Source: a virus. Taken from it: a stretch of DNA of 60,766 bases. The DNA lies in IMG/VR virus record IMGVR_UViG_3300046003_003173, positions 1 to 60,766 of that record. One strand, written 5' to 3'. The notes under the pieces were generated by a model. It was given only the letters and a program-made list of their open reading frames with translations, was not told the DNA's origin and did not search any database. The translations under genes were made by a program, and so were the position numbers. This document shows, one piece after another, positions 1,374-20,972 of this stretch (position 1 is the first letter of the stretch; every line of letters starts with the position of its first letter).

Positions 1374-1829
1374 TCACCCTTTTAAATCAAAACTCAGATT
1401 AGCATGGCGGGGGTATTGAACGACACGTTCACCTTCGGGACACTTGTACTTGATCGTCGCTAGCAATGTAGCTGAACCCGGCGCAATCTTCTCTTTTCTC
1501 ACCATCGTGAGTTGGTATGTAAACGTGTCAATCGTTGGCCCTGCTGGGCCGCTGAACTTGCTTGCGGTTGTCGTTGCCTCGTGCACCATACCTGCTGCGT
1601 CACGGATGCTTGGCGTAAAACTCTCTACTGAGCAGTCATCACGTTTTTTAATCCGGGCCACCGTGACGTTGATAGGTTGCCCTGCCGCTGCTGTAATCTT
1701 AAAATGCTCTGGTGACCACTCAAGGATAGCCCTGTCAAACCACCCAAACTTGTCTGCCAACGTGTACCCGCCGCCAATGGCTGCAATGCTGGCTGCGACT
1801 GCTCCAATGGCTTTGGTAAGGTCAATCAT
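1374..1829 (-). CDS. N-terminally anchored exported protein of lysis cassette (151 aa)
   Basis: The N-terminus (AIGAVAASIAAIGGGYTLA) is one membrane-spanning helix or uncleaved signal. A 120-residue soluble domain follows with two Cys (in RDDCSVES and KYKCPEGER), rich in Thr and beta-type sequence. I do not recognise the family. The position next to the holin suggests a lysis or envelope function, possibly spanin-like, but no Rz1-type nested gene is visible. A near-identical copy lies at 57958-58413, differing by scattered mostly synonymous changes and a few residues such as K/T and R/Q. Confidence 0.7.
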   Translation of the reverse strand: MIDLTKAIGAVAASIAAIGGGYTLADKFGWFDRAILEWSPEHFKITAAAGQPINVTVARIKKRDDCSVESFTPSIRDAAGMVHEATTTASKFSGPAGPTIDTFTYQLTMVRKEKIAPGSATLLATIKYKCPEGERVVQYPRHANLSFDLKG

Positions 1830-1848
1830 TTGTCCCGCCTATTCCACT

Positions 1849-2019
1849 TCATCTGCCCAACGTCAAAGAGGCATAAACGATGGCTGCCATACTGACGATC
1901 AAGACACCAGCGGTCTTCATGATCACGCCCTCAAGCCGCTTGAGCCGAGCATTGATCTGTGCATACCGTTCTGCACAAACGGCCTCATGGCTCGTCAATC
2001 GGATGTCTATATCGCTCAT
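1849..2019 (-). CDS. Small membrane protein with coiled N-terminus (56 aa)
   Basis: The protein begins MSDIDIRLTSHEAVCAERY, continues with a charged helix (QINARLKRLEG) and ends with one hydrophobic segment (AGVLIVSMAAIVYASLTLG). The start overlaps the stop of the tail-chaperone gene by four bases. A copy with few substitutions lies at 59037-59207. The topology fits a lysis accessory such as a haemolysin-like or antiholin-type peptide, but the function is unknown. Confidence 0.65.
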   Translation of the reverse strand: MSDIDIRLTSHEAVCAERYAQINARLKRLEGVIMKTAGVLIVSMAAIVYASLTLGR

Positions 2020-2507
2020 GGTGCGTCAGGCCAAGTAATAGTCCAAGGGAATCCAGCCTGTGCTGGGATGTCTCGCAAGGCTTGGCAGTAATCTTTCCAC
2101 GCCTGTGAAGGTGTCATATCACTGCGAAACCGCCAATCAGTCTCAGTCAGCTTGTCATCCCGGCTGGTGCGTACCGCCTTGGCTTGCTCTGCGTCCTTGC
2201 TGGCCTTGTAAGCAGCCTCTTGCTCGGCAGCAGTAGTAGTTACACCATCTACAACTTGGTCTAAGAAGACAGGGCCGAGGATGTACTTGGTGTACCACTT
2301 GCCATCAATCTGCTCAACACCAGACGCTTGGCTGTATTGGTAGACCGTCCCGCCAGAGGCTTGTGGTCCTTCAAAAACCACATCAGCACCCAGTGCTGTC
2401 AAGACCTCGGTTGTTGTTGTGTCCCACGCTGGGCCACCATTGGCTTTTTGGTATGCACGAAACTCTGCCTCGTACATGACCGCGCCTGTTTGTGTTCTGA
2501 TTTGCAT
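2016..2507 (-). CDS. Tail assembly chaperone-like protein, APC domain (163 aa)
   Basis: The C-terminal 60 residues carry the pattern of the Phage_tail_APC family: SRDDKLTETDWRF, then WKDYCQALRDIPAQAGFP and a terminal WPDAP. The N-terminal half has MYEAEFRAYQKANGG and a small beta domain around GGTVYQYSQASG. Such proteins sit beside fibres and are thought to aid fibre or tail assembly. It lies between the fibre and the lysis genes. A copy with a shorter, different linker (FTDTEDTT in place of FLDQVVDGVTT) is at 59204-59683, and a third APC domain is at 5055-5336. Confidence 0.75.
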   Translation of the reverse strand: MQIRTQTGAVMYEAEFRAYQKANGGPAWDTTTTEVLTALGADVVFEGPQASGGTVYQYSQASGVEQIDGKWYTKYILGPVFLDQVVDGVTTTAAEQEAAYKASKDAEQAKAVRTSRDDKLTETDWRFRSDMTPSQAWKDYCQALRDIPAQAGFPWTITWPDAP

Positions 2508-2517
2508 AGTGTGTCCT

Positions 2518-4467
2518 TTAAGCCACGGAAAGGAAAATGTAGCTTGCTGATGTGACGTTGATGTTTGTCGCTGAAAGCTGGTTCACCACAAAGCCTGTGC
2601 TGTCGGTATCCACGCTGTCGTCTGTCGTTACTTCAGCGGCTGATGTGTTGAGGCTGAGGTGTGGGTCATTACCAGCTACGATTCCCCTTGCGCTGTCCCA
2701 TACATACCAATCACCCGTTGAGTCAGTGCGCTTGATGAGTACGAACCTCGCCCCGCCTGTGAAGCCACAGTTGATAGTTTGGGTTGTGCCGTTGCCTGTG
2801 TAGCTGCCTACTTTGGAAACACCAGCGCAGGTTGCGAAGAGGTAGGCTACGAATGTGTCCGCGCTTTCATTTGTGCTATTGTTTGTTCCCACTGTAAACA
2901 CTGTGGACGTTGGCGAAGTGTCGTTCCAATAGGTTATGTCGTCTACCGTTGCCGCTGTTGTGTTGAGAACAAGGTAATCTGTGTTGTCTGCGTTGGCATA
3001 CACCGCCCATGCGCGACCTGTTGCATCAGAACGATTCTTCACAATCATCAACTCAGGCACAACAGTCAGATTGTGCGTTACAGTTCTGTTTGCTCCCGTC
3101 CCCGTATAGCAAACAGTATCCATAAACGATGGCGCACGTCTCATTAACCAACCATATTGATTTGCGTTTGCTCCTGTACTTGTAAACATACCATTTTGGT
3201 AGTCCCAAGTTACATTGGCATCGCTATCTTCTGCAACATTATAATTTGGATATAAAGTTTTAGCGCCTTGCAAGCGTGTGTGAAAATAGTTGTCACTTGT
3301 TCCTGTTATCTGTCTTCGATAGGCAAAATCAACAGGAAAGCTACTTACATAAGCTGGGTTAGTACCTACGCTTGTTGTAATGTTTAACACACTCGTCCCC
3401 AGCGTAGGCACTTTCATCGGGCCACGGCGTATGGCTATGTAGATGTAGGTATCGCCAGACCTATTTGTAAGCGAACCATATGCTCTACCAACAGCAATAC
3501 CTGTAGGAGTTATTGCGATAGCGTTTTCACCACCTTCTGCACTTGATGTATTTGGCTGTAACCATTTGCTGTCACCACCAGTTCCTGTTGCGTTCCCTAA
3601 CCATCCTCGCATAGTGTCATAAATTTGCCAGTTTGTTTCTGACAAGCCAGAAGCGTTACTAGCATTTTTCCACAGAATCCATTGAGGCTCATAGCCCAAT
3701 GTAATTGCTCTGTTTGCTGTTTCGTCCCCTGTATAACCTCCACACGAAATCACATTGTCCGTACCCGTCAGGCCAAAGCCGCCTGCGTCATGGGCGAATA
3801 GGTAGGCTACGTAGGTTGAACCAGAGCCATTAACACCGCTGTCGCTTCCAAGAGTTAAATCAGTTGCGCTAGGGATTGTGCTATTCCAAAATATACCGCC
3901 ATCAGAAAAAGCCTCACTGGTGCTATTTATTTGAATGTATTGAGTGCTTGTTAACGCTCTGTGCCAACAAATCCAATTGTTTACATTGCTTGTTCTTTTA
4001 ACAACAACAAATCCCGGTGCAGAGCCAAGATTATGGGGAATTTGCCGACCAGCAGTACCATTTCCAGTCCACGTCACAATATCAAAAAACTTTGGCTGCT
4101 TGCGGAATGTCCATGAGACGTAGGTTCGTGCCGAAAATCCACCAGTTACAAATCCCGTAGACGTAAATGACTGAGCGCCTTGGCCGCTGCCAAAATCATT
4201 GGCGGCTGTGGTGTCTGATTTTAAATTGACATCGCCGCCCCGCACGGTGTCCACAAGAAAGTTGCCTTGAACGTCACTTCTGCACTTAGTCCAAACCAAA
4301 CCACCCTTGGTAGACAAGTCAATACCGTTGGTAATAGTTTGATTTGAGCCTGTCCCAGTAAAAAGAAAGCAAGAAAACACGTCCTCAATGTAGTTAGCAG
4401 CAGCCGCCTGTGCAAACTCACCAAAACCTTGGGCCGATGCCGCACCCCTTGTTTGTACTAATGGCAT
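2518..4467 (-). CDS. Tail fibre / receptor-binding protein, branch A (649 aa)
   Basis: A long Gly/Thr/Ser/Asn-rich virion protein built from about five repeats of one module, each with a GTG or GNG turn (FTGTGSNQTI, WTGNGTAGRQI, YTGDETANRAI, YTGTGANRTV, YTGNGTTQTI) followed by a strand ending in a Trp- or Lys-containing motif (VWTKCR, VVVKRT, ILWKNA, MIVKNR, VLIKRT). The C-terminus carries WYVWDSARGIVAGND and ends VTSASYIFLSVA. It is probably a trimeric fibre that binds the host surface. The end-truncated fibre at 59693-60766 shares its central 98 bases exactly and its C-terminal module closely, but differs between them. Confidence 0.75.
   Translation of the reverse strand: MPLVQTRGAASAQGFGEFAQAAAANYIEDVFSCFLFTGTGSNQTITNGIDLSTKGGLVWTKCRSDVQGNFLVDTVRGGDVNLKSDTTAANDFGSGQGAQSFTSTGFVTGGFSARTYVSWTFRKQPKFFDIVTWTGNGTAGRQIPHNLGSAPGFVVVKRTSNVNNWICWHRALTSTQYIQINSTSEAFSDGGIFWNSTIPSATDLTLGSDSGVNGSGSTYVAYLFAHDAGGFGLTGTDNVISCGGYTGDETANRAITLGYEPQWILWKNASNASGLSETNWQIYDTMRGWLGNATGTGGDSKWLQPNTSSAEGGENAIAITPTGIAVGRAYGSLTNRSGDTYIYIAIRRGPMKVPTLGTSVLNITTSVGTNPAYVSSFPVDFAYRRQITGTSDNYFHTRLQGAKTLYPNYNVAEDSDANVTWDYQNGMFTSTGANANQYGWLMRRAPSFMDTVCYTGTGANRTVTHNLTVVPELMIVKNRSDATGRAWAVYANADNTDYLVLNTTAATVDDITYWNDTSPTSTVFTVGTNNSTNESADTFVAYLFATCAGVSKVGSYTGNGTTQTINCGFTGGARFVLIKRTDSTGDWYVWDSARGIVAGNDPHLSLNTSAAEVTTDDSVDTDSTGFVVNQLSATNINVTSASYIFLSVA
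3386..3483. repeat. 98-bp exact repeat, internal copy (matches window end)
   Basis: These 98 bases, starting AACACACTCG and ending CGAACCATATGC, are identical to the last 98 bases of the window. The match breaks at the base before. It lies inside the fibre gene and encodes the IAIRRGPMKVPTLGTSV region. An exact match that stops at the contig edge is typical of an assembly-graph branch point. Confidence 0.95.
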
Positions 4468-18650: not shown

Positions 18651-20972
18651 TTAGTACCCAGTCACTGGGTCGAATACGTTGAACTCAAGCGTCGGGGCCA
18701 TGCGGCCAGATCGCATTCGGCCCGCGGCCTCTTCCTGTGTCTTGGCGTGGCGTCGCATCATCATTGCGTAACGCGTTGCTGACATCAAGTCGTCGCTGAT
18801 TTTAACGACCATGCCATCCTTGCGGTGGTACAGCCTGAACTCCTCGAACCAGTCCTCCAGATGTGAGAACACCCGAAGGCGCATGGTCTGCATGCGTGTC
18901 AGCATCTCGGACAGGCCGGCCTCGACTCCGTTGCTTCCGTCCTCGAAGGTGGCCCGGTTGGGCATCATGTTCAGACCTTGGTCCTTGTACTGCTTGGCCA
19001 GCTGCTCACCGCTGCCGCCCTTGTCCCGCTGCAGGCCGTCGTGCGGCCATGCGATCGGCACCCAGTCGCCGCGCGAGCGCACTGCCATCGAGTGCCCAGC
19101 GATGCCGGGCTCACTGCGTCTGTAGCAGTCGGTCACGTAGAGCGTGTCGCTGTCCTTGTCCCAAGCCATCCAGACAACGGCCGTCGGGTGGTCGACACCG
19201 AAGTCGATCGCCGCAACGCGTGCCCAGTGAGGCGGGATCGGGAATGCCCTGATCTTGATCGCCTCCTCGACCACTGGGAAGACCCGGCCAGATCCCAGAA
19301 TGGGGATGCCCTTGGCCCGTGCTTCGCGCTCATGCTCAGGGTAGCTGGCGATGATCGCATCGGCCTGCTCCTTGGTGTAGTGCTCGGCGTCGCTGATCGT
19401 CATGTTGGTCACGGTCGATGACGCCGGCTTCTCCAGCAGGAATCGCTTGACCACTTCGGACATGCCGAGCAAAGGCGTGAAGGTCACGAAGACCTGACCG
19501 GCCACAGCTTGTGTACGGGTCAGGCCCTCAGAGTAAATCGGCAGAGGTGGCTCTTCGTCGAACCACACCAAGTCGACAGTGTCGGCTTGCCACTTGGTGC
19601 GGCCTTGGTCGTAGCTGTTGAACTGGATCACGCTGTCTTCGCCACATTCGTGGCGGACCACAATGCTCGAGACCGCGTCGGGCACGCCCTGCTTCATTGA
19701 CGTATCGCGAACGCAGTCAAACGGAATGGCGCCGGTGCCCCACTCCTCGCGCATCTCTGGCGGACCGAGCAGCAATCGTTGAATACCCTTTCGGGTCAAC
19801 TCGGCCGATTCGGACCCGACCATGCACCGGATGGCGTAGTTGTACCGCCGCCCCTTCCACCAAGACGGGTACCGGCCCGTCGTGTGCATCGCGACCTCGA
19901 ATGCGCCAGCCCACGTATTGTGGTGCACAACACCGTCAGCAATGTAGTTGTGAAACTTTGGCACGGTCAAGTCGTACAAATCATGTACGCCAACCGACCT
20001 GAACGCTACAATACGATTCCCTTCACTGTCAGGAGAAACCAATGCGCGGACGCTTCTCAACGATTGACCCGGTCGTACTGCAAGAGCTGATCGAAGTAAA
20101 GAACCTAACACAGCGACAAGCGGCCCAGCAAATGGGCGTATGCCTGTCTGCTGTTGAGCGCGCCTGTAAGCGGCTTGGGCTAAAAACACAGAGGCCCGGA
20201 CCGCGCTCAGGAGCCGGCCACCCAGACTGGAAGGGCGGTCGAGTCTTGATCGGCCGCTATTGGTACCTGTGGACTGGGCCAAGCCATCCAATGGCGACGC
20301 AGGCCGGGTACGTGGCTGAACACCGGCTTGAGATGGCCGCAACGGTCGGACGTTCGCTTCTCCGGGGAGAAGTGGTTCACCACCTTGACGGAGATCCTCA
20401 GAACAACGCCCGCTCAAACCTGATGCTGTTTGGCTCAAACGCTGCTCACCTTCGCCATGAATTGACGGGAAAGATTCCAAATCACACGCCTCAAGGCAAG
20501 GTGCGAATGCAAGAAGCTGCTCGAGCGTCGCATACCCGGCGGCGGTCAAAACTTGGTGATCCAAGGCAGCCGTGAACACATCACCGGTGGCTAACAAAAC
20601 TTCGACGCACAGTTCGGGGGCTTTGCGGATTACGTGAGACGCGCCAACGGCCACAGCCTTGTCGCCATCCCAAGCCCAGACCTTAAAAGATTCAGCCCGC
20701 GCGTACAGTTCGCCAATAGTCGAAACCGTGCCGTCTGGGTGTGGAACAAGGCTGTTAACAGTTCTACATTTTCCGAGTTGATTGCCCGCCATGAACAGGC
20801 GCTCTCGGAACCCGGCGCCGGCTGCATGGAACTCCCGCTGCTTGGCGTAGGGCGCATAGGTCAACAAGCGGTTGCGCTTGGCCCTGATGTCCTTCAATCG
20901 CAGAAGCTCGTAGAGCTCCCGCTTCTCGTCGTCGTCCAGAAGCCGGGTGTCGATGCGGTCGAGCTGGATCAT
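18651..20972 (-). CDS. terL: Terminase large subunit interrupted by an intein (773 aa precursor)
   Basis: This is the packaging ATPase-nuclease. Residues 1-68 run to the P-loop GNQLGK and residue 353 onward resumes TWAGAFEVA, so the mature protein would be 489 residues, a normal TerL length. After the intein come the Walker B region (VDLVWFDEEPP), the coupling-type FVTFTPLLG and the nuclease domain with VAAIDFGVDHPTAVVW. The intein spans residues 69-352 and splits the Walker A motif between K68 and T353, so the unspliced protein cannot be an active ATPase. The gene overlaps the small-terminase candidate by four bases. A complete HNH gene lies antisense inside the intein part, and the terL frame has no stop across it. 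Confidence 0.95.
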   Translation of the reverse strand: MIQLDRIDTRLLDDDEKRELYELLRLKDIRAKRNRLLTYAPYAKQREFHAAGAGFRERLFMAGNQLGKCRTVNSLVPHPDGTVSTIGELYARAESFKVWAWDGDKAVAVGASHVIRKAPELCVEVLLATGDVFTAALDHQVLTAAGYATLEQLLAFAPCLEACDLESFPSIHGEGEQRLSQTASGLSGRCSEDLRQGGEPLLPGEANVRPLRPSQAGVQPRTRPASPLDGLAQSTGTNSGRSRLDRPSSLGGRLLSAVRASVFLAQAAYRRAQQQTGIRPFAGPLVAVLGSLLRSALAVRPGQSLRSVRALVSPDSEGNRIVAFRSVGVHDLYDLTVPKFHNYIADGVVHHNTWAGAFEVAMHTTGRYPSWWKGRRYNYAIRCMVGSESAELTRKGIQRLLLGPPEMREEWGTGAIPFDCVRDTSMKQGVPDAVSSIVVRHECGEDSVIQFNSYDQGRTKWQADTVDLVWFDEEPPLPIYSEGLTRTQAVAGQVFVTFTPLLGMSEVVKRFLLEKPASSTVTNMTISDAEHYTKEQADAIIASYPEHEREARAKGIPILGSGRVFPVVEEAIKIRAFPIPPHWARVAAIDFGVDHPTAVVWMAWDKDSDTLYVTDCYRRSEPGIAGHSMAVRSRGDWVPIAWPHDGLQRDKGGSGEQLAKQYKDQGLNMMPNRATFEDGSNGVEAGLSEMLTRMQTMRLRVFSHLEDWFEEFRLYHRKDGMVVKISDDLMSATRYAMMMRRHAKTQEEAAGRMRSGRMAPTLEFNVFDPVTGY
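19917..20768 (-). other. Intein in TerL Walker A motif (284 aa), with antisense HNH insert
   Basis: Splicing blocks are readable. Block A starts at C69 (CRTVNSLVPHPDGTVSTIGE). Block B is GDVFTAALDHQVLTAAGY (residues 130-147), with the usual TxxH Thr replaced by Ala (A136-L-D-H139). Block F is LYDLTVPKFHNYIADG, and block G is VVHHN ending at N352 followed by Thr+1. Residues between about 148 and 318 (RSGRC-type Arg/Ser/Leu-rich, low complexity) match no LAGLIDADG or HNH domain in this frame; they are the antisense reading of the HNH gene on the plus strand. Confidence 0.93.
20042..20575 (+). CDS. HNH homing endonuclease encoded antisense inside the terL intein (177 aa)
   Basis: It is the only convincing plus-strand gene in 1-22.4 kb. 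ATG at 20042 follows AGGAG (20031-20035) by six bases. A helix-turn-helix region (LTQRQAAQQMGVCLSAVERA) precedes an HNH_3-type domain: YVAEHRLEMAATVGR, EVVHHLDGDPQNNARSNLML (H113, H114, D116, N121, N122, N126) and H136/H139. A basic C-terminus (SHTRRRSKL) ends at 20575. Its codon position 1 pairs with codon position 1 of terL, and its wobble base with terL position 2. The 3' end overlaps intein block B. It probably cuts intein-less terL alleles to drive homing. TACAAT at 20007-20012 could be a -10 box, but no clear -35 is present. Confidence 0.92.
   Translation: MRGRFSTIDPVVLQELIEVKNLTQRQAAQQMGVCLSAVERACKRLGLKTQRPGPRSGAGHPDWKGGRVLIGRYWYLWTGPSHPMATQAGYVAEHRLEMAATVGRSLLRGEVVHHLDGDPQNNARSNLMLFGSNAAHLRHELTGKIPNHTPQGKVRMQEAARASHTRRRSKLGDPRQP

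Follow-up and report, generated by a model that had tools for sequence, protein, structure and literature searches.

An apparently undescribed class of phage inteins with a putative homing endonuclease encoded on the antisense strand

The terL gene of the window—the whole stretch of 60,766 nucleotides of viral DNA that was analyzed (IMG/VR record IMGVR_UViG_3300046003_003173)—carries an insertion that very probably represents a class of homing inteins with the endonuclease encoded separately, by a gene on the antisense strand. This class is quite probably widespread and hitherto undescribed, has a probable single origin, and moves between unrelated P-loop ATPases; its endonuclease gene lies in a fixed antisense phase, forming with the intein frame an overlapping pair selected on two strands. 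The preliminary description had proposed a homing unit with protein splicing encoded on one strand and DNA cutting on the other. At the sequence level, this proposal is strongly supported by empty sites, a cluster of 8 changes within 40 bp, purifying selection on the HNH gene, and recurrence of the architecture. The features in the window are listed in Table 1.

Table 1. Features of the terL locus in the window
Feature	Position	Strand	Basis or remark
terL precursor gene	18651..20972	-	N-extein 20769-20972, intein 19917-20768, C-extein 18651-19916
Intein, 284 aa, TerL residues 69-352	19917..20768	-	Exactly missing from near relatives
N-terminal Hint segment, intein residues 1-92	20493..20768	-	AlphaFold pLDDT about 89-98
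Filler, intein residues 93-250	20019..20492	-	Mostly HNH reverse complement; predicted largely disordered
C-terminal Hint segment, intein residues 251-284	19917..20018	-	NCBIfam C-terminus match and AlphaFold
HTH + HNH_3 endonuclease gene, 177 aa, wholly within intein	20042..20575	+	Domain matches, model, selection in relatives
Shine-Dalgarno AGGAG of HNH gene	20031..20035	+	6 nt upstream of ATG 20042
Overlap zone, HNH 3' end over folded Hint segment, intein residues 65-92	20493..20575	both	Coordinates; two-strand constraint refers to the matching segment of the first family, not to the window copy
N-extein flank	20769..20808	-	8 differences per 40 bp from near empty alleles; ends GGAAAA versus GGCAAG

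The window TerL is a minus-strand ORF of 773 aa with matches to Terminase_6N (4e-24) and Terminase_6C (5e-19), and is interrupted at its ATP-binding P-loop by a predicted Hint splicing domain composed of intein residues 1–92 and 251–284. The insertion is in frame, has splicing blocks at both termini, and sits at the Walker A lysine/threonine junction, GNQLGK|T. Its catalytic residues are all present: Cys1 as the nucleophile, the block B His71, the block F Asp266, the C-terminal pair His283 and Asn284, and a Thr at position +1; the block B Thr is replaced by Ala. C1, H71, H283, and N284 are invariant across 37 intein members, which carry Ser, Thr, or Cys at +1, and Asp266 is likewise conserved among divergent members. 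The Intein_splicing match is 1.7e-5 and lies under the curated cut-off; of the NCBIfam intein models, the C-terminus scores above and the N-terminus below its cut-off. The AlphaFold model based on the family alignment features pLDDT values of about 89–98 for residues 1–90 and 94–97 for residues 251–284, the insert staying mostly below 50 with a helical stretch around residues 181–220 at 50–80. The model has a Hint fold and is matched by Foldseek to DnaB, RecA, and DnaE inteins (DnaB mini-intein, E 6e-7), and the intein family profile matches DnaB mini-inteins at 2e-19. These residues and the Hint model, together with the exact 852-bp empty sites described below, bear out the intein that the preliminary description had placed inside minus-strand terL.

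Most of the space between the Hint parts reads, in reverse complement, as a separate predicted HTH–HNH gene with its own ribosome-binding site. The gene product matches HNH_3 (1.6e-7) and several PHROG HNH families (best 6e-18), and joins an N-terminal HTH as a separate DNA-binding domain to an HNH motif, whose residues are invariant or nearly so in the family and present in the window. The AlphaFold model of the HNH protein, with the N-terminal HTH and the HNH core, has a mean pLDDT of 88.6. Foldseek with this model gave no match with E <0.001, the better local matches being mostly helix-turn-helix proteins, and the only homing enzyme matched by the HNH family profile in the PDB is I-HmuI (1u3e)—weakly, at E 0.015. 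An SD-like motif precedes the first ATG of the HNH ORF in 100 of 150 distinct family sequences (67%) versus 15% for control ATGs on the same strand. A scan for sigma-70-like promoters on the plus strand near the window HNH gene found none. A complete plus-strand HTH + HNH_3 gene with AGGAG and ATG, as originally claimed, is thus confirmed by domain matches, model, and coordinates. The same holds for the two claims about its overlap with terL: throughout the 534 bases the TerL frame contains no stop, as against 6–8 stops in each of the remaining four non-coding frames, and the 3' end of the HNH gene, at intein residue 65, reaches into the block-B region with the conserved His71. Upon synonymous shuffling of the HNH codons, the TerL phase stayed open in 12 of 20,000 trials; hence, the HNH sequence by itself does not account for the open phase. 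HNH codon positions 1, 2, and 3 are paired with TerL positions 1, 3, and 2, respectively, so that either frame's most constrained position opposes the other frame's most tolerant one.

The search for further Hint inteins with antisense HNH genes that the preliminary description had called for yielded about 155 further distinct sequences with the same architecture, from IMG/VR contigs, prophages, and isolated Pectobacterium and Pseudoalteromonas phages. In a first set, 94 of 94 distinct inteins (window included) have the HNH sequence antisense and in one phase; their insertion sites, the window apart, are almost all G|[ST][AGST]K[ST]. The window-type set comprises 76 loci (62 distinct), each with at least one recognized intein end and with an open antisense frame, again in this phase; the sites include GK|T, GNQ|SGK, and GGNR|S and, in SNF2-like helicases, D|TGLGK and D|CGMGK. 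A scan with the terL-intein alignment in place of the HNH again returned intein-bearing members with antisense HNH, or a remnant only in the case of L261. The inteins occupy mostly P-loops of unrelated terminases and, in some cases, SNF2-like helicases (SNF2-rel_dom was matched in 2 of 39 members); the antisense-HNH inteins of L334 (2199–3065, minus strand) and L338 (2157–3056, minus strand) apparently lie in SNF2-like helicase P-loops. In 21 pairs, Hint domains are 61–69% identical although the C-exteins of their TerLs show no detectable similarity. Among annotated phages, a search with the HNH protein found the Pectobacterium Ymer group and Pseudoalteromonas phage PHS3, both with an antisense HNH in a TerL intein; the words "intein," "endonuclease," and "homing" are absent from the Ymer-genus paper. 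Bacterial genome contigs of Enterobacter cloacae, Acinetobacter, and Methylomonas carry an antisense-HNH intein as well, and HNH homologues of lower similarity are free-standing. The sequence comparison suggests one origin for the class, which is the simplest account because the phase is single everywhere; alternatively, this phase may be favored through its pairing of constrained with tolerant positions.

Several members differ from the common arrangement. L261 is a 146-residue mini-intein without an HNH gene, having an antisense remnant only; L249, L250, L255, and L257 have shortened HNH genes; and in L128 the HNH is split while the intein frame is open. Such decayed copies are consistent with the usual homing life cycle. 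Broken HNH frames beside an intact intein had been named at the outset as grounds for refuting the proposal: they do occur, in these same copies, but the HNH frame overall is strongly selected. In the window-type L337 (2469–3266, minus strand), the TerL frame spans 266 codons and ends close to where the HNH gene begins, possibly because of a broken copy or an assembly error. A subgroup of L295–L304 and L306 starts with GGNR|CLAAEQEI or similar and has a C-terminal block not recognized by the profile—possibly a divergent intein type. The intein-bearing terL of Escherichia coli MEI003 (L266, 1480–3885, plus strand) is called incomplete in RefSeq, and the PHS3 record (L089, 972–3098, minus strand) annotates only the post-intein part of terL; both are annotation artifacts because the precursor ORF went unrecognized.

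Selection was assessed with overlap-aware tests, in the first set on 24 independent sequence pairs. In this phase no single change is silent in both frames, and each difference can hence be assigned to a frame. Over the filler, the HNH omega is 0.08 (0.06–0.10) and the TerL-frame omega 0.84 (0.63–1.13). Over intein residues 16–55, the values are 0.30 (0.14–0.50) for HNH and 0.15 (0.07–0.26) for TerL, and over residues 56–92, 0.14 (0.06–0.25) and 0.24 (0.11–0.43). Beyond the HNH gene, in the last 36 intein residues, the antisense omega rises to 1.6 (0.8–5.1) with TerL at 0.08, and the C-extein as a negative control gives 3.5 (2.3–6.0) antisense and 0.044 for TerL. The window-type set has an HNH omega of 0.099 (0.079–0.119). 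Its terL-frame omega of 2.4 was rejected as a sign of positive selection and is read as unconstrained, since the test is skewed where changes in the other frame are rare and the C-extein control is similarly skewed. The two-strand conservation test suggested in the preliminary description thus has a positive outcome: as judged by substitution patterns in the relatives, the HNH strand is selected over the filler (omega 0.08–0.10 in the two sets), where the TerL frame is unconstrained, the TerL strand over the C-terminal Hint part, and both strands over the N-terminal Hint domain, one strand being constrained for this domain and the other for the HNH C-terminus. TerL codon-position divergence flips accordingly between the filler (0.39/0.65/0.32) and the C-terminal Hint part (0.38/0.28/0.59). 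Between the window and its nearest relatives, divergence is highest at HNH position 3 and, for most comparisons, lowest at position 2, contrary to the pattern of normal TerL coding. The window HNH itself is represented by five identical contigs with zero polymorphism; the selection results for it hence come from comparison between lineages.

Evidence for mobility comes from empty sites. When IMG/VR was scanned with the window precursor, 75 loci were obtained, of which four have the intein and the others are terL relatives; many of the intein-less relatives are full length and shorter by 284 codons. The nearest empty contigs (L015–L018) have flanks about 97% identical and lack exactly 852 bp, giving presence and absence at one precise site in close relatives, and E. 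coli ET729 carries the empty allele of the intein-bearing E. coli MEI003. Compared with each of six near empty alleles, the window has 8 changed positions within the 40 bp upstream of its insertion, whereas other 40-bp flank bins have mostly 0–3 differences (maximum 5), the downstream excess being small. In addition, the junction Lys of window-type inteins at GK| sites is AAA in 16 of 16 distinct cases versus 7.1 expected from the codon usage of the C-exteins of the same inteins; in the window terL C-extein, AAA accounts for 1 of 16 lysines. The cluster of changes and the AAA junction are consistent with either co-conversion of a donor flank or a block to self-cutting: the 40-bp N-extein flank is likely a co-converted donor flank, and its difference could alternatively reflect protection from self-cutting. 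The homing-intein reading rests on the empty sites, these donor-like flanks, the similar inteins in unrelated terminases, and the decayed mini-inteins.

A homing cycle would then proceed as follows. The TerL precursor would splice itself, the antisense-encoded stretch being tolerated as a floppy loop in the ordinary place of an endonuclease domain, and the antisense transcript would yield a free HNH protein. In a co-infecting phage or prophage whose terL lacks the intein, this protein would bind the sequence coding for the P-loop and cut or nick it, and repair off the intein-bearing copy would transfer the 852-bp unit together with a short flank. Later decay of the HNH gene would leave mini-inteins. 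The class may have arisen when an HNH gene landed antisense in a mini-intein.

Other explanations of the locus fit less of this evidence. It is extremely improbable that the plus-strand ORF arose antisense by chance or that a living intein carries it as a dead passenger: the copies with a broken, shortened, or absent HNH beside an open intein frame would agree with it, but the strong domain and structure match, the omega near 0.1 in two independent groups, the SD motifs before HNH starts, and the inverted codon-position divergence of the window would not. A chance ORF in particular was rejected on the codon shuffling and the selection tests. A gene that mainly regulates terL instead of serving homing—by antisense RNA or by DNA binding of the HTH—is very unlikely as well. 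The HNH transcript would indeed run antisense to terL, and its product contains an HTH; however, an HNH motif kept nearly invariant speaks against this, and both the patchy presence and absence with exact empty sites and the related inteins in unrelated genes, including SNF2-like helicases, are typical of mobility. An antisense transcript could in itself still regulate terL.

A live HNH within a non-splicing insertion, with TerL either working unspliced or dead as proposed for the ShiLan insertions, is distinctly unlikely. The sub-threshold Pfam intein score of the window and its replaced block B Thr would suit such an insertion; against it stand the conservation of Cys1, His71, Asp266, His283, Asn284, and the +1 Ser/Thr/Cys in divergent members, the confident Hint model resembling DnaB, RecA, and DnaE inteins, and TerL-frame omega values in relatives of 0.08–0.24 for the Hint parts and of 0.044 for the C-extein. 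Moreover, a P-loop insertion that stayed in place would inactivate the ATPase. That the class is real while the window copy is partly decayed and has lost homing is unlikely. Its HNH has 177 aa versus about 220–240 aa in the first family and ends at intein residue 65 where the first family reaches about residue 14, and all known window copies are identical; however, the nearest relatives likewise lack a recognizable C-terminal extension in the aligned part, and the window copy retains the HNH motif residues, an intact frame, and an intact ribosome-binding site.

In these probable homing inteins with an antisense endonuclease gene, one strand provides for splicing and the other for cutting, while both are passed on as a single unit. 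The class constitutes a large natural data set on the origin and persistence of antisense overlapping genes and shows that inteins tolerate a long, mostly disordered antisense-encoded stretch. It accounts for terminases truncated or called incomplete by annotation pipelines, and makes it possible to test how expression proceeds for a gene lying opposite the coding strand of a packaging gene. A description of antisense endonuclease genes in inteins was not found in the open-licence literature—a paper elsewhere is possible—and the class is apparently undescribed.

In the usual description of inteins, the endonuclease forms a domain within the intein protein itself. In a classical homing intein the endonuclease is translated in frame, whereas here the HNH lies on the opposite strand and the intein frame at that place is predicted to be disordered. 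The HNH core is shared, by a weak match, with I-HmuI, which is an intron-encoded enzyme; the HNH of the window class, in contrast, is embedded in an intein. For inteins related to the mycobacteriophage TerL P-loop inteins TerL1-a and TerL1-b, splicing and endonuclease activity were shown (PMC5050341). TerL1-a shares the TerL host and the Lys|Thr junction with the window intein, but the activity matched an endonuclease domain in the intein itself, and an antisense gene is unmentioned. In ShiLan, an HNH is described as hidden in another frame of a methylase insertion, read from the same transcript and without a detectable splicing domain (PMC11855218). The likeness lies in an HNH gene within an insertion that is open in the host-gene frame and in a patchy, homing-like distribution; the window element differs by having its HNH on the opposite strand, in a Hint intein, with TerL and other P-loop ATPases as hosts of its class. 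In an uncultured huge phage (L088, LR756508.1), an N6_N4 DNA methylase ORF (1564–3915, plus strand) carries an insertion with an HNH in another frame of the same strand (1937–2821, plus strand). This arrangement resembles ShiLan in the same-strand HNH and perhaps differs by splicing blocks: the insertion is intein-like by eye (CITPDTEIL...FVTGN|S) and reaches E 3e-3 with our own N-profile, and gave no Pfam or NCBIfam intein match. Nuclear group I introns such as Didymium L2066 carry expressed homing endonuclease genes antisense to the self-splicing element (PMC9548176), and are similar to the window class in placing the endonuclease gene opposite a self-splicing element. Within the open-licence literature, they and ShiLan come nearest to the window class. 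However, L2066 is an RNA intron of rDNA with a His-Cys box enzyme and no protein frame to keep open, whereas in the window class the host protein is translated through the reverse complement of the endonuclease gene.
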